From an uncultured Alphaproteobacteria bacterium (GTDB taxonomy: Bacteria; Pseudomonadota; Alphaproteobacteria; Rhodobacterales; Rhodobacteraceae): a stretch of 64,000 nucleotides of DNA. A program made the translations under genes and the position numbers. The notes beneath the pieces are model-generated. The model saw nothing but the letters and a program-made list of their open reading frames with translations, was not told the origin of the DNA and ran no database searches. The stretch lies in assembly GCA_902578545.1 (NCBI GenBank), contig CACHDI010000001.1, positions 248,001-312,000 on the forward strand, written 5' to 3'. Position 1 is the first letter of the stretch; each line of letters opens with the position of its first letter. Shown piece after piece: positions 56,138 to 63,938 of this stretch.

Positions 56138-56878
56138 ATGAATTGGACTGACGAAGGACTTTTATTAAGTGTCAAGCCGTACGGAGAAAGGGCAGCAGTT
56201 ATTCAAGTTCTAACTGAACATAAAGGTCTTCATGCTGGATTAATCCAAAATGCTTTTTCGAGAAAAATGAATTCTACTTTACAACCTTCTAATCAACTAC
56301 ATTTAAATTGGTCTAGTCGTTTAGAAGAACATTTAGGAATTTACAAAGCTGATTTATTAAGGAGCAGAGTTGATATTTTTTTATCTAATAAACTTGCTTT
56401 AGATGTTTTTAATACAATATCTGCTCTTTGTTTGTCGACTTTAGCTGAAAGAGATCCAATACCAGGACTATATAAAAATACTACAAATTTTCTTGACCAA
56501 ATAACTAATATAAAAAAGTGGGAATTTTTTTATATTCATTGGGAATTGAATTTATTAGCATCTTTAGGTTACGGTCTTGATTTAAAAAAATGTGCTGCCA
56601 CTGGTACTACAGAAAATCTTTTTTATATTTCGCCCAAATCTGGGAAGGCTGTTTGTAAAGAAAAGGGACTAAAATATGATAAAAAACTTCTACGTTTTCC
56701 TTCAATTTTAAGGGATGTAGGAAAAAATCATGAATTTAATCGGTCAGATTTATTAGATGGTTTAAAAATAACTGGTTTTTTTTTAAAAAAATGCCTTATT
56801 GATTCCTTACAGAATAGTCAGACTATTATTATAAGACAAAGATTAATCGATACCCTATCCAATGAGGAAAATACCTGA
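56138..56878 (+). CDS. recO: DNA repair protein RecO
   Basis: RecO loads RecA onto SSB-coated DNA in the RecFOR pathway. The 246 residues have the N-terminal OB fold (DEGLLLSVKPYGERAAVIQVLTEHKGLHAG), and a helical domain with LLASLGYGLDLKKCAATG and SPKSGKAVC. The zinc-type cysteines are reduced in number compared with some homologues. It is the last core gene of the rightward operon; the repeat island starts immediately after it. Confidence 0.92.
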   Translation: MNWTDEGLLLSVKPYGERAAVIQVLTEHKGLHAGLIQNAFSRKMNSTLQPSNQLHLNWSSRLEEHLGIYKADLLRSRVDIFLSNKLALDVFNTISALCLSTLAERDPIPGLYKNTTNFLDQITNIKKWEFFYIHWELNLLASLGYGLDLKKCAATGTTENLFYISPKSGKAVCKEKGLKYDKKLLRFPSILRDVGKNHEFNRSDLLDGLKITGFFLKKCLIDSLQNSQTIIIRQRLIDTLSNEENT

Positions 56879-56929: not shown

Positions 56930-57056
56930 CAAAAGGTGGACTTTGAGGTGGAGAATTTTGAGTTTTTGTTTTGAAACCCCTCTACTGGACATGGTGGACA
57001 TGTACTTGGGGGTACCCCAAAAACCATAGCCTATTTTGCGAGTATTACTTCTCACA
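56930..57056 (+). repeat. Island repeat copy A (long form), between recO and metalloprotease
   Basis: Copy A fills the convergent spacer after recO. It has a leader shared only with copy B (CAAAAGGTGGACTTT at 56930–56944; TTTTGAGTTTTTGTTTTGAA at 56957–56974 in large part), a 9-bp unit in tandem (TGGACATGG then TGGACATGT), a hairpin (GTAC at 57002–57005 with GTAC at 57012–57015), and the tail CCCCAAAAACCATAGCC, TATTTT, then TTACTTCTCACA. It is more diverged in the middle than the others. Confidence 0.8.
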
Positions 57057-57074
57057 TGTTTTGAAAAGATTAAA

Positions 57075-57812
57075 TCAGTTTTCTTTTCCAAAAATTGATT
57101 GCAAAGCCAAGAGATCTACTCTGGAATAGAATTTAAGATATTCCCAACCTTCTGGAGGATCCTCGTATGCCATAACTGTCAATCCAGTATGAGCTGTCTT
57201 ATCTCCATACTCTTCTGTGGATCCTATGCAGTTACCGTCCGAATTATCGAAGGGATGTTTTAAGCCTAAAATATGTCCCAATTCATGGTAAAAAACAGTT
57301 GCATAATTGCTTTCTTCCATATTGTAATTCAATACCAAAACATATTCTTCCCCATCTTTGGTCTCAGAAACATAGCCTACCATATCTAAATTTTCATATT
57401 CATCAGGGTTACTTCCATCATGTACAGCGATAATAAAATCGGCATCAGAGCGCTTTTGGGTTCGGACAAATTTAATACTTAAAAATTGATCGAGTGCTGA
57501 TATTTTTTTTTCAAACCAATCAACATCTTGATCGTCAAGCGCTATGGAACGAAATTCTGTATATTCCATCATCTCTTCTTCTGTTTCATAATATGTTTCA
57601 GATTGTTCAACAAAGTACCAAACTTCAGACTTTTCTAAGCTAGCATAATTTTCCTCTAAATACTCTAGCAATTCATTTGCCCAATCTTTCTGAACTAGCA
57701 CCTCAACCCACGTATTATCGTCAGCATCAAGACTATAACAATCATCAGCAGCAGAAACTGTTCCAGCCCATGTCAGAAAAGAAAGTGCCATCACTAAAAA
57801 TATAAAATTCAT
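57075..57812 (-). CDS. Secreted metzincin-type zinc metalloprotease
   Basis: The 245 residues from ATG 57812 (a TTG at 57845 is in frame) begin with a signal peptide cleaved near VSA/ADD (about 21/22). The C-terminal third has the full metzincin zinc motif HELGHILGLKH (His176, Glu177, His180, His186) and a Met-turn TVMAYED with Met at about 214, then VDLLALQSIFG as in serralysin/matrixin proteases. No RTX repeats are present. Three lines counted (57121–57300) are 39% G+C, above the core. It probably degrades extracellular or envelope protein. Confidence 0.85.
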   Translation of the reverse strand: MNFIFLVMALSFLTWAGTVSAADDCYSLDADDNTWVEVLVQKDWANELLEYLEENYASLEKSEVWYFVEQSETYYETEEEMMEYTEFRSIALDDQDVDWFEKKISALDQFLSIKFVRTQKRSDADFIIAVHDGSNPDEYENLDMVGYVSETKDGEEYVLVLNYNMEESNYATVFYHELGHILGLKHPFDNSDGNCIGSTEEYGDKTAHTGLTVMAYEDPPEGWEYLKFYSRVDLLALQSIFGKEN

Positions 57813-57876
57813 AATCAAGTTAACTTTTGTTTTAATAAATATCAAACTGCTACCCAGTTTATCATACTCTTTTATG

Positions 57877-58023: not shown

Positions 58024-58136
58024 CAAAAGGTGGACTTTTTTGAGTTTTTGTTTTGAATATGACAGATATGACACTTATGACACCCACCCCAAAAACATAT
58101 CCTTGAGGATACCGTAAAATCAATAGACTTATTTTA
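58024..58136 (+). repeat. Island repeat copy B (long form), between metalloprotease and DUF3137 gene
   Basis: Copy B starts with the leader shared with copy A (CAAAAGGTGGACTTT). It then has three tandem 9-bp units, ATATGACAG (58057–58065), ATATGACAC (58066–58074) and TTATGACAC (58075–58083), then CCACCCC, AAAAACAT, and the best hairpin of the family: TATCC (58098–58102), loop TTGA, GGATA (58107–58111). The tail is the most diverged (ATAGACTTATTTTA). It sits in a divergent spacer. Confidence 0.85.
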
Positions 58137-58233
58137 AATTGCTAATACAGGCTGATTTACGTTTGCAAAAAGTTGAGTTACATTTTGTAATTATAGTTAT
58201 ATTTTTTCATGTAGTCATTTAGGATTTTAAATA

Positions 58234-59433
58234 GTGATTAGTCTATTAAAATGGATTTATGATTTTATCAAAGGTTATATAATTACAACATTTTTTTTCG
58301 CCTTTCTACTGATAATAGGTATTTCAATGTGGGATGTTTTTTATCCTTACAAAGATTTATTTCCAGGAGTTATTTTAGTCTTACTTTTTATAAGACTTTT
58401 AAATCCTTTTCTTACTAGAGAAAGAGTTTCTAGAGTGAGATTTCCCGAAACTGAACTCTATGAAAAAGGTTTTGCAGATCATTATGACAAATATTTAAAA
58501 AATAAAGTAAAAAAATTTGAGTTAAATAGAATTGCTGCTCTGAAAATAGCGAGGCGCAATTTTTTTATCGGTTTGCCCATAGCTCATTTTGTTCCATGGG
58601 GTATTTGGCGTATTAATGGATTTTTATATGATATCTTGTATGATGTCTTGTGGGGTTGGCCTTATATTTTAATAGTTTTTTTGGGACCATTTGCCTTATT
58701 ATTTGTTTTTTGGTTAATAGTAATGGGTCCAATTTGGCAGTATAAAGAATCTATCAAAACAAAAATCTTCCCAAACATCTTAAATTTTTTAGGAAAGTTT
58801 ACCTATACTGTTAATCCCAAGAACAAATATGTTGGGCAATATGATTTTATGGGGTTTTTCCCAATATATGACAAGTCAATCAATGAAGATAATATTAGAG
58901 GTGAGTATAAAAGTGTAAACATTGATCTATTTGAGACTGTGCTTGAAAGGGCTAGAAAAAGTAAAAATGGAGGAACATATTATGATAAAGTGTTTAGGGG
59001 AATTATTATAGATTTAACTTTTAATAAGGCCTTAAAAGGAACCACTATAATAAGAAAAGATTCAGGAATAATAGGTAATTTATTTCATGAAAAATTATCA
59101 AATCTGAAAGATATAAAACTTGAAGATCCAAAGTTTAATAAAATTTTTCAGGTTTATTCAGATGATGAGGTAGAAGCTCGTTACGTTTTGTCAGTTTCAT
59201 TTATGGAAAGACTAAAAGAATTATCTGAAGCATTTGGTAGTAAGGTAGTTCAATGTTGTTTCTACCAAGAAAAAGTAGTTTTTGTTGTTCCTATTAAGAA
59301 AAATATGTTTGAACCTGGATCAATTTATGCAAATGAAAATTTTATTGATGATGCTAAAAGTTTATTAGAAGAAATGGATTTGATTTGTAAAATAATTGAT
59401 ATTTTAAGACTTAATATTAAAACTAATATTTAA
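58234..59433 (+). CDS. DUF3137 family membrane protein
   Basis: The 399 residues start at a GTG (58234) after AGGA. Three membrane segments are visible (about 15–32, 43–58 and 140–165). The C-terminal soluble part has the DUF3137 pattern: GIIIDLTFNKALKGTTIIRKD, then KLEDPKFNKIFQVYSDDEVEARYVLSVSFMERL, and KVVFVVPIKKNMFEPG. Members occur widely in bacteria with no known function. The gene stands alone between repeat copies B and C. Confidence 0.85.
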   Translation: MISLLKWIYDFIKGYIITTFFFAFLLIIGISMWDVFYPYKDLFPGVILVLLFIRLLNPFLTRERVSRVRFPETELYEKGFADHYDKYLKNKVKKFELNRIAALKIARRNFFIGLPIAHFVPWGIWRINGFLYDILYDVLWGWPYILIVFLGPFALLFVFWLIVMGPIWQYKESIKTKIFPNILNFLGKFTYTVNPKNKYVGQYDFMGFFPIYDKSINEDNIRGEYKSVNIDLFETVLERARKSKNGGTYYDKVFRGIIIDLTFNKALKGTTIIRKDSGIIGNLFHEKLSNLKDIKLEDPKFNKIFQVYSDDEVEARYVLSVSFMERLKELSEAFGSKVVQCCFYQEKVVFVVPIKKNMFEPGSIYANENFIDDAKSLLEEMDLICKIIDILRLNIKTNI

Positions 59434-59535
59434 AAAGATACAAATGGAAGTAAATAATTAATATTGATTTTATTTCTGTTAAGCTTATAAAACCTCAAGG
59501 GTTTGCAAGAGAGTGTGTGAAAAGAACAGAAAAGT

Positions 59536-59633
59536 GTGTTGAACATAACAATCATAACATCCACTCCTAAGACATATCCTTGAGGTCACCCCAAAAACCA
59601 TAGCCTATTTTAGCAAGTACGACTGCTCACACA
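59536..59633 (+). repeat. Island repeat copy C, between DUF3137 gene and cyclase
   Basis: Copy C lies in a tandem spacer. It has GTTGAACATAACA, a second 9-bp unit ATCATAACA, TCCACTCCTAAGACATAT, CCTTGAGG, then TCACCCC, AAAAACCATAGCC, TATTTTAGCAAGTAC and GACTGCTCACACA. The tail is the consensus form and matches copies A and D closely. The hairpin arms are reduced to CC/GG around TTGA. Confidence 0.88.
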
Positions 59634-59727
59634 TCATGACCAATATTTTTTATTTCTTCCCTTTCCAAATTTCCTCTTATGAGTCATTATTGCTAATATG
59701 GTTTCTTTATTATTTATGGTTTATTAG

Positions 59728-61572
59728 ATGTCTTCAGGTACTGTTGATAGAAAAATAGCTGTGATCTTTGCTACGGATGTAGTGGGATACAGTAAACATA
59801 TGGAGACTAATGAAAAAGAAACAGTTAAGAATTTAAAAGTATGTGAAAAAATACTAACAAAAACTTTTGAAAACCACAAAGGAAGGCTCTTTAATACAGG
59901 AGGGGACTCTTTTTTAATTGAGTTTCCAAGTGCTGTAGAAGCAGTTGAATGTGCTGTTTCTTTTCAAGAACAAATAAAAAAAAGAAATACTACAGATAAT
60001 CCCACAGTGCCGTTGGAATTTAGAATAGGTATTAACACAGGTGATGTTATCCAAGATAACGAAAATTTATTAGGCGATGGTGTAAATATAGCAGCACGAT
60101 TAGAGGCTTTGGCTCAACCCAAGGGAATTACAATCTCTAAGGCTGTATATGATTTTATCAAAGGAAAGACTAACTTTGACTATAATGACTTAGGTATTCA
60201 AAAGATTAAGCAAAATGAGTTTCATGCTTATGATATACTCCTTGATCCATCTCAAAAAAGAAAACTCAAAGCCACAAAGAAAAAAATTTATGAAAATAAA
60301 TTATTATTAATTATAATTCCTTTTTTGATTATTGGTTTTTACTTTTTTTATGATTTTCAAAAAAAACAGCAACTGACTATTTCAGATTCGCCTATAATAT
60401 TAGTTAAACCATTTAAAGATTTAACAAGTTCACCAACTGGTGAAGCTTCAATAAGTGATGCTGTAACTGAAACAATTATAAATAATTTACAGAGATACAG
60501 TGAAATAACAGTTCTTTCAGTGGACAGCAGTTATCATATTAAAAAAGAAAATCTAACTAATGAGGTTATATCTCAAAAATTTAGTGTTAACTTTATAGTT
60601 AATGGTTCAGCTCAAAGATTTGGTGAAGATATTCGAGTTACTTCAGAACTTACAGATTTAAAAATTAATAAAGTTGTTTGGGCAGAAAAATTTGACTTTA
60701 AAATTACAGATCTTTTTAAAATGCAGGATACAATTGGTAACAAAATTTTAAATTCAGTTTCTACTAATGCAGTCATGGGGAAAGAAGGATATTCTGATAA
60801 TTTCATAGAACAATTTACTTCTATTGACGATTATCTTCTTCAAATAAATATGAGAAGGTATCTTAGACAGATTTCTAGGGATGGTTGGTATAACGCAGAT
60901 GAACTATATCAACAAATGAAAAACAATGATAATTACCCACCATTAAGTCTAGCAGTGATGGGTGGTTGGAGAAGTGTAGTTAAAATATTTACAGGAATTG
61001 CAGAAGATAAAAAAGCAGAAATCAAAGAAGCACTTAGATTGAATAACAAAGGGCTTGAAATTGACGATAACTACCCTCCTGTTTTGACGCAAAGGGCTTT
61101 TATAGAAGCCAATTTATTAAAGAATTGCGAAAATGCCGTTTCTTTTTCAGAAAAAGCTATGGTTAATGGCACATATGATTTTTTAGTAAATGGACTTGTT
61201 TTTTTTGGTTGTGGACAGTTTGAAAAAGGCCTGAAAATGTTTGAAGATGCTTTAAAAAGTACTCCTCATGACACAGATTTGCGAATAACAAAAAATCTTA
61301 TGGCTGGTTATTTAGCAATGGGTAAATATGATAAGGCAATTAATCATGGTGAAAGTAAAAAAGATAGAAATGATGGATTAAGTTATGTGTTGAGTGCATA
61401 TGCTCATTATAAAAGTGGTAACGAAAAAGAAGCCAAGAAACTTCTTGAAAAACAAAAATCTTTTGACAAAAAAATGGATAAAGAAAGATTTCAAAAAGAA
61501 TTTGCAACATTTGTAGACCGTGATTTTATAAATACTTTTTTTGAAGAGATGATTTCACTTGGTTTGGAGTAA
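59728..61572 (+). CDS. Class III adenylate/guanylate cyclase with membrane helix, TolB-like segment and TPR tail
   Basis: The 614 residues start with a class III cyclase domain (about 8–170): metal aspartates Asp17 (ATDVVGYS) and Asp60 (GGDSFLIEF), GINTGDV, and GDGVNIAARLE with transition-state Asn120 and Arg124. All catalytic residues I can check are present, so it is probably active, making cAMP or cGMP. A single helix (192–208) follows, then a periplasmic TolB-like segment (VKPFKDLTSSPTGEASISDAV) and several TPRs to the end. A membrane sensor that signals inside through cyclic nucleotide is the likely role. Confidence 0.88.
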   Translation: MSSGTVDRKIAVIFATDVVGYSKHMETNEKETVKNLKVCEKILTKTFENHKGRLFNTGGDSFLIEFPSAVEAVECAVSFQEQIKKRNTTDNPTVPLEFRIGINTGDVIQDNENLLGDGVNIAARLEALAQPKGITISKAVYDFIKGKTNFDYNDLGIQKIKQNEFHAYDILLDPSQKRKLKATKKKIYENKLLLIIIPFLIIGFYFFYDFQKKQQLTISDSPIILVKPFKDLTSSPTGEASISDAVTETIINNLQRYSEITVLSVDSSYHIKKENLTNEVISQKFSVNFIVNGSAQRFGEDIRVTSELTDLKINKVVWAEKFDFKITDLFKMQDTIGNKILNSVSTNAVMGKEGYSDNFIEQFTSIDDYLLQINMRRYLRQISRDGWYNADELYQQMKNNDNYPPLSLAVMGGWRSVVKIFTGIAEDKKAEIKEALRLNNKGLEIDDNYPPVLTQRAFIEANLLKNCENAVSFSEKAMVNGTYDFLVNGLVFFGCGQFEKGLKMFEDALKSTPHDTDLRITKNLMAGYLAMGKYDKAINHGESKKDRNDGLSYVLSAYAHYKSGNEKEAKKLLEKQKSFDKKMDKERFQKEFATFVDRDFINTFFEEMISLGLE

Positions 61573-61630
61573 AATTTATATCTGTTTAAGCCGTTTAAGA
61601 ATTTAAAACTTTTAAAAAAAAATTCATTAA

Positions 61631-61719
61631 ATATAACTTATATAACATCCACCCCTATGACATATCCTTGAGGGCACCCCAAAAAACAAAGCCTATTTTA
61701 GCAAGTGCTACTGCTCACA
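61631..61719 (+). repeat. Island repeat copy D, between cyclase and GFA-like gene
   Basis: Copy D lies in a convergent spacer. It has ATATAACTTATATAACA (two degenerate 9-bp units), TCCACCCCTATGACATAT, CCTTGAGG, GCACCCC, AAAAAACAAAGCC, TATTTTAGCAAGTGC and TACTGCTCACA. The tail is nearly identical to copy C. TAGCAAGTGCTA inside it is a perfect 5-bp inverted repeat with a 2-nt loop. Confidence 0.88.
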
Positions 61720-61868
61720 GATTATGTTTTTATATTATACTTGATTATTAATTTATTTACAGGTGTATACTATTTTACTACTAAGTTTTAATTCGTTGTT
61801 ATCATAACTATGATTGTTTTTATCTAAATTAAATCTAATTATATGAATTAACTTATCTTATTTAGCAT

Positions 61869-62471
61869 TTAATTTGGAGGTAAGTTTAATATTTCAATTT
61901 TGGGTAGTTTTAGTATCATTTCCCGAAAAGTAATTCCTTCTGGAGGTATTATGACTTCTCTTAGAGAATTGGAAACTTCAGGAATCATAAAAAATCTTTC
62001 ACGCTCGTTATTTTCAAATGACCAATATTTGTCTACATCATTAGGTATTTCATTAATCAAATGTTCAGGAAAATCTTTTAAATAAATTGCGGCACTGGGT
62101 TTGATCTCTAAATCAAAGTTAGCAGAACAAAATCCTTTAAAAAACATAAATACATTATTTTTATAACCTGGGTGATCTACTCCTAAAATAGAAAAACACT
62201 TTATACAATAAACACGAGTAGACTTTGCATTTTCACGAATTTGAAAAGCACGAAGAAACTCTAAACCTTGAATTTTTTTTATGTCAGATCGAATATATAA
62301 AAGTTGGGGCAAAATCTGAGGGGGATTGCCGCCTTTTTTGAATCCCCAAATTAAAGCCTCTCTACAATCTTTACAACCACATAGTAAGCATAAGCTAGGA
62401 GATGCATAGTTTAAAGTCAATTTACAACTTGAACATTTACAGATTATTTCTGCTTTAATTTGTTTCTCCAT
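61869..62471 (-). CDS. GFA/CENP-V-like zinc protein
   Basis: The 200 residues have an N-terminal cysteine cluster, CKCSSC (Cys11, 13, 16) and CLLCGCKDC (Cys28, 31, 33, 36), then RVYCIKCFSILGV at about 87. That spacing is typical of the GFA/CENP-V beta-tent fold (PF04828 and the related DUF6151). The central GGNPPQILPQLLYI and the C-terminal half fit no named subgroup I know. Glutathione-dependent chemistry is a family property only. It stands alone between repeats D and E. Confidence 0.7.
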   Translation of the reverse strand: MEKQIKAEIICKCSSCKLTLNYASPSLCLLCGCKDCREALIWGFKKGGNPPQILPQLLYIRSDIKKIQGLEFLRAFQIRENAKSTRVYCIKCFSILGVDHPGYKNNVFMFFKGFCSANFDLEIKPSAAIYLKDFPEHLINEIPNDVDKYWSFENNERERFFMIPEVSNSLREVIIPPEGITFREMILKLPKIEILNLPPN

Positions 62472-62793
62472 ATTTTATAGTATTTTTTTCAAAAAATAAT
62501 TCAAAAACTAATTTTAGTAAAATTTAATTAATTCATAAAGGCTTTTTGTCATTAATTATTTTTTGTATTTTTTCAGTCATAAAACTAATTGCCATGATAT
62601 AAATATTTCGTATCTTAAATGGGTACTTTTTTTTAGATTACTGTAAAAACCCTACCTTTTGTTAACCCCAGTACAATTCCAAAATTAAAGAGTCAAACAA
62701 TGGTAAGAAAGTACGTCAAGAATAACTATAAAGGGTGTTGAACATAACAATCATAACACCCACCCCTAAGACATATTCTATAGGATGAGAACA
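62472..62793. other. 322-bp spacer between GFA-like gene and small barrel gene
   Basis: Apart from repeat copy E (62735–62788) the spacer is AT-rich with T-runs and no supported gene, RNA or terminator. A 13-codon ATG frame at 62700–62741 is too short to call. Confidence 0.7.
62735..62788 (+). repeat. Island repeat copy E (short, tail missing)
   Basis: Copy E has GTGTTGAACATAACA, ATCATAACA, CCCACCCCTAAGACATAT, then a changed hairpin ATTC–TATA–GGAT (62775–62786, with one G·T pair). The similarity stops about 5 bp before the stop codon of the next gene at 62794. The AAAAACCATAGCC tail is absent, so the copy is either truncated or ends where the gene module begins. Confidence 0.85.
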
Positions 62794-63108
62794 TTACCAA
62801 CTATAAAATTTCTTTCCTCTGTTAAAAACTATTTTGGAAACAAATTCTTGAGCAATATCTCCCCACTTTGACCAAAGTTTCTGACATCGAACAAAGGCCT
62901 CTTCATCCTCATACTCCCAAATAATCAAAATTTTTACAAGGTTTTCATCTGCAATACGAATACAACTAACATTTAATTGGCCTGATTTTCTCAAAAATTC
63001 TTTTGATTTATCCGTATTAAATAATTTAAAGCTATCTGACCATAATTTATAATCACCTTCTGAAGGAAAGGTCACAATTGCAGAAGAAAAATAATTGTCT
63101 TTATCCAT
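62794..63108 (-). CDS. Small protein, probable dimeric alpha/beta-barrel domain
   Basis: The 104 residues start at ATG 63108 with AGGTG before it; a GTG at 63117 is in frame. The alternation of strands and helices (SAIVTFPSEGDYKLWSDSFKLF, then VKILIIWEYEDEEAFVRCQKLW) looks like an antibiotic-biosynthesis-monooxygenase or NIPSNAP-type ferredoxin-like fold, but I recognise no specific family. It has no signal peptide. Its stop codon abuts repeat copy E. Confidence 0.6.
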   Translation of the reverse strand: MDKDNYFSSAIVTFPSEGDYKLWSDSFKLFNTDKSKEFLRKSGQLNVSCIRIADENLVKILIIWEYEDEEAFVRCQKLWSKWGDIAQEFVSKIVFNRGKKFYSW

Positions 63109-63246
63109 AAATAACACCTATTAAGAATTTAAGAGTCAAATTATAACTTATGATAAATTTAGAATGTCTTCAATTTATTGATTAAAATTATAAAGGATAT
63201 TTGAACCTTTTATGAATTAAGAAATACTCATAAAAAAATCTGTTTG

Positions 63247-63330
63247 TTTTGAACATAACAAACATAATAATCATGACACCCACTCTTAAGACACATCCTT
63301 TAGGATAACCTTAAAAACATAGCCAATTAT
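63247..63330 (+). repeat. Island repeat copy F, between small barrel gene and secreted protein gene
   Basis: Copy F has TTTTGAACATAACA, then two more 9-bp units AACATAATA and ATCATGACA, CCCACTCTTAAGACACAT, the hairpin ATCC–TTTA–GGAT (63295–63306), AACCTTAAAAACATAGCC and AATTATTT. The tail diverges after ATAGCC. Its TTTGTTTTGAA start links it to the leader of copies A and B. Confidence 0.83.
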
Positions 63331-63356
63331 TTGTAATAATTGGGTTTGGAGTTTGA

Positions 63357-63370
63357 GTCTCTCTGGAGAC
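63357..63370. other. Short perfect hairpin GTCTC–TCTG–GAGAC
   Basis: A 5-bp perfect stem with a 4-nt loop lies 128 bp upstream of the secreted protein gene, just after repeat copy F. There is no T-run after it, so it is not a typical terminator. Role unknown. Confidence 0.4.
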
Positions 63371-63497
63371 AACATCATGTTAGACTTATTTTCTTTCTAA
63401 AGAAAAACAATAGGATAGAGTGACCTAACGTAATTCTTGTGTGAACTAACTTTTTTAGTTTGACTGTTCAAATATTAATTTTTTGGAGATAGTTTTA

Positions 63498-63938
63498 ATG
63501 AAAAGATTTTTTGTTTTTATTTGTTTTTATTTTTTTTCAGCCTTTACAATTTTTGCAGGTGGCCATGATAATGCAAATGCTTTTGGATTTGCATTAAAAG
63601 TTCCAATGAGTGAAGTGGAAAACATTGAGAAATTACTTAATGACCATTATGAATTTATGAAAAAAACTCATTCTGTTACCGGTGAAAAAGAAATAAGATT
63701 AAATGCCTACACAGTACTTAAAGGTCCTGAAATGGTTGATCCAACTAATCCTGAAAAGGGAACAACTGGCAATATGTTTTATATTTTGACTGAACATTAC
63801 GAAACACCTAAAGGGTTTCAGAATCATCTAGCTGCAGGTTCTAAATGGGAAGGGTTTCAACAATTCAATGAAATGTTGCTAAAGTATCGTGTTGCTATGA
63901 CCTTCCCTGGAACACTAGTATCACAAATGAATAGATAA
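63498..63938 (+). CDS. Small secreted protein, probable alpha/beta-barrel (ABM-like) domain
   Basis: The 146 residues from ATG 63498, with TGGAGAT before it, begin with a signal peptide (KRFFVFICFYFFSAFTIFA, cut near AGG). The rest has the pattern of a stress-responsive or monooxygenase-like alpha/beta barrel: FALKVPMSEVENIEKLLNDH, MFYILTEHYETPKGFQNHL and AAGSKWEGFQQFNEMLLKY. No catalytic residues can be named and no specific family is recognised. It is the last gene in the window. Confidence 0.65.
   Translation: MKRFFVFICFYFFSAFTIFAGGHDNANAFGFALKVPMSEVENIEKLLNDHYEFMKKTHSVTGEKEIRLNAYTVLKGPEMVDPTNPEKGTTGNMFYILTEHYETPKGFQNHLAAGSKWEGFQQFNEMLLKYRVAMTFPGTLVSQMNR

Follow-up and report, generated by a model that had tools for sequence, protein, structure and literature searches.

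Nine-base-pair direct units as putative protein-binding repeats of a two-module site delimiting gene cassettes

Results

The repeat present as six copies (A to F) in the window, that is, the whole 64,000-nucleotide stretch of DNA analysed here, is a two-module site with a defined direction, and it marks the borders of exchangeable cassettes, mostly of one gene each, that lie in tandem arrays. The 9-bp tandem units in its left module are probably protein-binding repeats of this gene-shuffling site, and their position beside attachment-type cores suggests that they are probably arm-type or accessory sites. The array, as a context of attachment-site repeats that delimit cassettes, was absent from the interpretation given in the earlier note.

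Cassette arrays and architecture of the repeat

Copies were counted with a sequence-only model of the repeat. At E<=0.01 it identifies 13 copies in the genome that contains the window, and six further genomes of the genus have 19-43 each. Outside the genus the model returned nothing convincing, with one match at E=1e-3, and no copy was found in the viral contigs, phages and plasmids searched. The records searched belong to uncultured Alphaproteobacteria, both single-cell-style isolates and MAGs, whose isolate names we take to denote a surface ocean origin. Nearly all copies of an array lie on one strand, and these same-strand copies separate cassettes of mostly one gene with a median length of 1.3 kb, in arrays that extend up to ~60 kb and occur in one genus of marine Alphaproteobacteria. 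Among the 147 intervals no longer than 4 kb, 101 contain exactly one gene, and the gene of a single-gene interval is oriented with the repeat in 64 cases and against it in 37. In five genomes of the window's sublineage the array begins ~100 bp past recO; in the sister sublineage no array follows recO where the region is visible, and arrays with the same r module are located elsewhere.

Two further features of the cargo were observed. Among the cassette families of the arrays, the one repeated most often consists of nucleotide-cyclase/TPR paralogues (window 59728-61572; L010:6872-8707), with 23 members in six genomes. Far from the array, a single aquaporin-like (MIP) gene lies between two full repeats (G000:C1:14628-15888; L004), and this repeat pair is nearly identical in five genomes.

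The ~140-bp repeat is composed of two modules, l and r, that meet at GGGTACCCCAAAA. The l module comprises a T-rich stretch, the 9-bp units and CACCCACCCCTAAGACATATCCTTGA, the r module extends as GGTACCCCAAAAACCATAGCC...CTCACACATTTTG, and the centre of the repeat reads GGTTTTTGGGGTACC on the minus strand. The units are located in the l arm, at least 26 bp from the centre, and the position of the unit block relative to the centre is fixed in 83 of 116 copies. The only hairpin predicted in the l module was rejected as a folded structure, as it displays no covariation (WC fraction 0.779 vs 0.778 for shuffled sequences), and Rfam gives no match within the window. The ~57-bp r module (e.g., window 59584-59640) is conserved in both sublineages and adjoins several different integration arms; it may act, for example, as a packaging or transfer start. 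The features of the array in the window are listed in Table 1.

Table 1. Coordinates of the array features within the window
Feature	Position	Strand	Basis
recO, conserved gene, array start	56138..56878	+	annotation, genome comparison
Attachment-type core at the recO 3' end (ACAAAGATTAATCGATACCCTATCC-type), with duplicates in the arrays of relatives	56836..56859	+	genome comparison
Copy A, two 9-bp units TGGACATGG TGGACATGT	56986..57003	+	sequence
Copy A r module, first array site after recO	57010..57064	+	repeat comparison
A-B cassette gene, weak metalloprotease-like	57075..57845	-	domain search
Copy B l module (T-rich stretch, units, C-rich block, ACATATCCTTGA)	58028..58106	+	alignments, half-site boundaries
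Copy B, three 9-bp units ATATGACAG ATATGACAC TTATGACAC	58057..58083	+	sequence and pattern counts
Copy B r module, right-flank class ii	58107..58163	+	alignment; cassette start common to G001
B-C cassette gene, DUF3137	58234..59433	+	domain search
Copy C, full l-r repeat	59530..59640	+	repeat comparison
Copy C, two 9-bp units AACATAACA ATCATAACA	59542..59559	+	sequence
C-D cassette gene, nucleotide cyclase domain and TPR	59728..61572	+	domain search
Copy D, full l-r repeat	61618..61728	+	repeat comparison
Copy D, two degenerate 9-bp units	61630..61647	+	sequence
D-E cassette gene, no family	61869..62471	-	domain search
Copy E, l module only, without r; abuts 3' end of a 107-aa gene	62721..62787	+	half-site boundaries
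Copy E, two 9-bp units	62741..62758	+	sequence
E-F cassette gene, same cassette in four genomes	62794..63117	-	genome comparison
Copy F, l-r repeat	63241..63325	+	repeat comparison
Copy F, three 9-bp units (orthologous copy in G008: two)	63252..63278	+	sequence, genome comparison
tRNA-Thr(TGT) 3' fragment (nt 31-70, 87.5% identical), after copy F	63329..63368	+	sequence match
Cassette gene after copy F	63483..63938	+	domain search

Periodicity and number of the 9-bp units

Direct reading of the sequence locates 9-bp tandem units in all six copies of the window, ahead of the C-rich block as the earlier note had described, and their recurrence exceeds chance. The unit ATRWCANNYATRWCA occurs four times in the window against 0.14 expected by chance, all four inside repeats A to F, and a longer pattern consisting of the unit and the C-rich block occurs three times against 0.00. 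Tandem Repeats Finder does not list the unit arrays of the window, because they are too short.

The 9-bp period, which a larger set of copies might have failed to show, is present in 116 distinct copies of the genus, where lag-9 self-identity in the unit block is 0.59 as compared with ~0.30 after shuffling (z=28.9). It is restricted to the 25 bp upstream of the C-rich block, in the left part of the repeat, and the flanking blocks have no comparable signal. The 83 copies scored contain one (26 copies), two (31) or three (26) units matching the consensus. A variable dinucleotide is common to adjacent units in 56 of these 83 copies, compared with 22.6 expected for independent units. The units are thus homogeneous inside a copy, and form three main classes (AA, GA and GT); the direct repeats of the block have a common ATRWCA core. 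Unit class was rejected as a genome-specific signature, since several classes coexist inside each well-sampled genome. A link between unit class and the arm motif GGTGGA/GGGGCA/GTGGCA was likewise rejected, because it is not significant in a permutation test (404/5000 permutations).

The number of units varies between closely related cells, a check that the earlier note had proposed, and does so in 9-bp steps. The same cassette, ending in copy F, has two units in G008 as against three in each of G000, G001 and G009, a difference of exactly 9 bp. Further cassette families differ by one unit between genomes, and one family has differing unit classes at the same cassette end. Of the 143 orthologous cassette-end pairs compared between genomes, 13 differ in the unit region by a gap of 9 or 18 bp and 54 are free of gaps there; other gap lengths are also found. 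In addition, unit blocks are exchanged en bloc between copies. The changes in 9-bp steps fit slippage or out-of-register exchange between copies as the easiest route. An origin of the tandem units through a reverse transcriptase was rejected, as no RVT_1 was found in 12 genomes.

Attachment-type cores at tRNA-Pro(TGG) and recO

In six genomes the left partner of the r module is not l but a tRNA-Pro(TGG) 3' half, which lies on the opposite strand; the matching E. coli gene is annotated tRNA-Pro. The best phage match (93.5% over 46/46 nt) carries the annotation 'attachment site in tRNA-Pro(TGG)' in Paracoccus phage vB_PyeM_Pyei1 (MK291445), in which it adjoins the phage integrase gene. This site, GACGGTTTTGGGTACCGTAGG, includes the array junction GGTTTTTGGG(G)TACC. 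The repeat therefore presents two features of attP-type sites, a core identical to a segment of a tRNA gene and a tRNA 3' half at the junction. Because the junction matches the phage attachment site and tRNA-Pro 3' halves are joined to it, the repeat is best read as an attP-type site, and in the simplest reading the l-r site would belong to tyrosine-recombinase elements targeting the tRNA-Pro anticodon loop. The stretches examined from genomes of the genus revealed no intact tRNA-Pro gene, and no integrase specific to the l-r centre was found. In G005, two tRNA-Pro(TGG) 3' halves with other sequences joined to them lie 9 kb apart (G005:C2:53422 and 62381; L243 and L253), and no tRNA-Pro gene lies between them.

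The 3' end of recO constitutes a second attachment-type core. Its last ~40 bp are found as ~15 duplicates with a sharp start inside the arrays of relatives, preceded by a conserved arm that is not part of recO and, further upstream, by C-terminal remnants of one integrase; no such duplicate was seen in the window's own genome. For cores with recognisable units, the units are located 103-134 bp from the recO core, and the l-r centre of recO-linked sites is 142-167 bp from it. Linkage to a recO core involves only ~20 of the 199 sites of the main sublineage. The putative cognate integrase of this core is intact in G001 (411 aa), where it ends ~125 bp before a recO core, and is represented elsewhere by C-terminal remnants. 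It contains a SAM-like domain, and its match to Arm-DNA-bind_4 is weak and below the cut-off. At recO, G001 harbours a ~10-kb P4-like integrative element with an intact tyrosine recombinase (G001:C1:254974-265280; L065), which also carries genes for a 1944-aa repeat-rich protein, a DnaB-like helicase and HTH proteins; the intact 411-aa enzyme neighbours HTH, replication-initiation and DnaB-like genes.

Repeated 3' fragments of a target gene between elements, a feature of tandem accretion, are found for recO and for tRNA-Ser(CGA) in G004 and G005. The tandem tRNA-Ser(CGA) 3' fragments are located at cassette boundaries (G004:C5:36684-51397 and G005:C1:6606-13856) and mark a distinct locus of accretion, where the r module is the same. 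A further tRNA-Thr(TGT) fragment (nt 22-56), besides that in Table 1, lies upstream of a right-only site that belongs to the same array (L010:1-80). Integrases near the arrays are few. Additional tyrosine recombinases were rejected as array enzymes, most of those tested being ordinary island integrases beside tRNA genes, and serine recombinases were rejected because they are only sporadic.

Exchange of cassettes between repeats

Recombination that can fall at any point of the repeat is the main way in which full copies swap cassettes. In a gap-aware analysis, their breakpoints range from -52 to +65 and agree with a simulated uniform crossover, not with a central crossover. A fixed central crossover for all swaps, as ungapped profiles indicate, was rejected for full copies by this analysis and the simulation; the abrupt mid-repeat switch that those profiles suggest is an alignment artefact arising from indels at the centre. 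Breakpoints distributed along the repeat, a feature resembling NIME/MME exchange, were found in full copies only. Since they are spread over the whole repeat, most recent swaps are explained by ordinary homologous recombination, which would be the process acting between full copies.

Half copies, by contrast with this spread, share one end point, which falls at model position 50-52 in 16 of 25 left-only copies and mostly at 44-50 in right-only copies. The boundary is joined to 23 unrelated left partners and 13 unrelated right partners. Because half copies end at one point with unrelated partners, l and r must have been joined to many sequences there; half-site boundaries and partner families thus reveal a fixed core joined to alternative partners, as in attP-type sites.

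These data bear on the alternative that the repeat is portable homology only, that RecA-dependent exchange moves the cassettes, as has been suggested for the repeat arrays of Neisseria, and that the units are neutral and altered by slippage or out-of-register exchange. The uniform distribution of full-copy breakpoints, the en bloc swapping of unit blocks with its 9-bp steps and the scarcity of integrases near the arrays all agree with this account, whereas the fixed boundary common to the 23 left and 13 right partners, and its match to the tRNA-Pro attachment site, are left unexplained. We give it an appreciable but minor chance of being correct.

Discussion

Proposed role of the 9-bp units

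Arm-type or accessory sites of tyrosine recombinases typically consist of short direct repeats placed at a constant distance from the attachment core. The 9-bp direct repeats occur at a fixed distance from the tRNA-Pro-type core, and an arm-type or accessory function fits because they lie in the l arm beside both the tRNA-Pro-type and the recO cores. Of the two explanations offered in the earlier note, spacing for a bound protein and slippage, the latter is supported by the 9-bp steps and the homogeneous units. Protein binding is consistent with the context, and, as unit number varies, pure spacing is an unlikely role. Copies from one genome differ in unit sequence, contrary to the prediction for a single binding protein.

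We favour, by a slight balance of probability, the interpretation that the repeat is an attP-type site of tRNA-Pro-targeting elements, in which the units are arm sites, homologous exchange came later and recO is a second core. Small tyrosine-recombinase elements would target the anticodon loop of tRNA-Pro through the l-r site and accrete head to tail, generating a tandem array in which, as a consequence of this accretion, l-r junctions separate the elements. An integrase or an accessory protein would bind the 9-bp direct units as arm-type sites. Once formed, full copies would trade cassettes mainly by homologous recombination, and unit number would shift in steps of 9 bp.

A bolder proposal, which we regard as unlikely, is a cassette-shuffling platform unrelated to integrons. 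Tandem elements carrying only cargo would have an attP-like site with interchangeable 9-bp arm specificity classes that are swapped between elements, and the integrase would be supplied in trans from rare intact elements, such as the recO-targeting element of G001.

It is improbable that the units are operators of a transcription factor or nucleoid protein with no role in recombination. Direct repeats with a common ATRWCA core would suit such operators, but the position of the units is the same for either orientation of the neighbouring gene, and they are always found within the l module beside the attachment-type junction. An integron remnant (CALIN) with the repeats as attC sites is very improbable. 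It would account for the tandem cassettes of single genes, each with its own directional site, but it was rejected, because the integron integrase IntI (TIGR02249) is below the cut-off in 12 of 12 genomes (which are incomplete), no inverted core-site pair was seen and the consensus lacks paired GTTRRRY/RYYYAAC ends, the only predicted hairpin is the one without covariation, and genes occur in both orientations.

Gain and loss of single genes in streamlined ocean bacteria are poorly resolved, and the arrays provide a concrete, testable route in one genus, in which dozens of swappable genes are bounded, at a set place on the chromosome after recO, by copies of a two-armed attachment site of the tRNA-Pro type. 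The l-r core can be used as a sequence tag for counting cassettes in metagenomes. The arrays also raise a clear question, namely whether any integrase reads the 9-bp arm classes and, if so, which one.

Comparison with known systems

No account of this array came up in our literature searches. The attachment site of Paracoccus phage vB_PyeM_Pyei1 shares with the arrays the same tRNA-Pro(TGG) 3' half and the same junction, GGTTTTGGGTACC. Compared with tRNA-targeting att sites, however, many tandem copies delimit single-gene cassettes here, mostly joining l to r without a tRNA part, and no integrase of the l-r site's own was found. Chromosomal integrons and CALINs (PMC8618304, PMC9668308) resemble the arrays in their long series of small cassettes with one directional site per cassette; the arrays differ in that no IntI was found, no folded attC is supported and gene orientation is mixed.

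In Neisseria, the repeats of NIME arrays and minimal mobile elements have been proposed to promote the exchange of whole-gene cassettes, and the repeat family contains a phage integrase target (PMC3898611). Both properties parallel the recombination part of the present system, but the Neisseria repeats are dispersed, whereas the present ones keep a strict direction and cluster at fixed loci. Among described systems of pelagic bacteria, the closest parallel is the additive flexible genomic islands of Ca. Methylopumilus, with recurring 20-bp tRNA-Lys end repeats (PMC10872708). Both are islands of streamlined pelagic bacteria marked by short, recurring repeats that stem from the 3' end of a tRNA; in contrast to the 20-bp tRNA-Lys end, the site reported here has two arms, measures ~140 bp and carries 9-bp direct units, and there is in addition a core at the recO 3' end. 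In its working the system resembles an additive island or a cassette array, and the site itself falls among attachment sites of the tRNA type.
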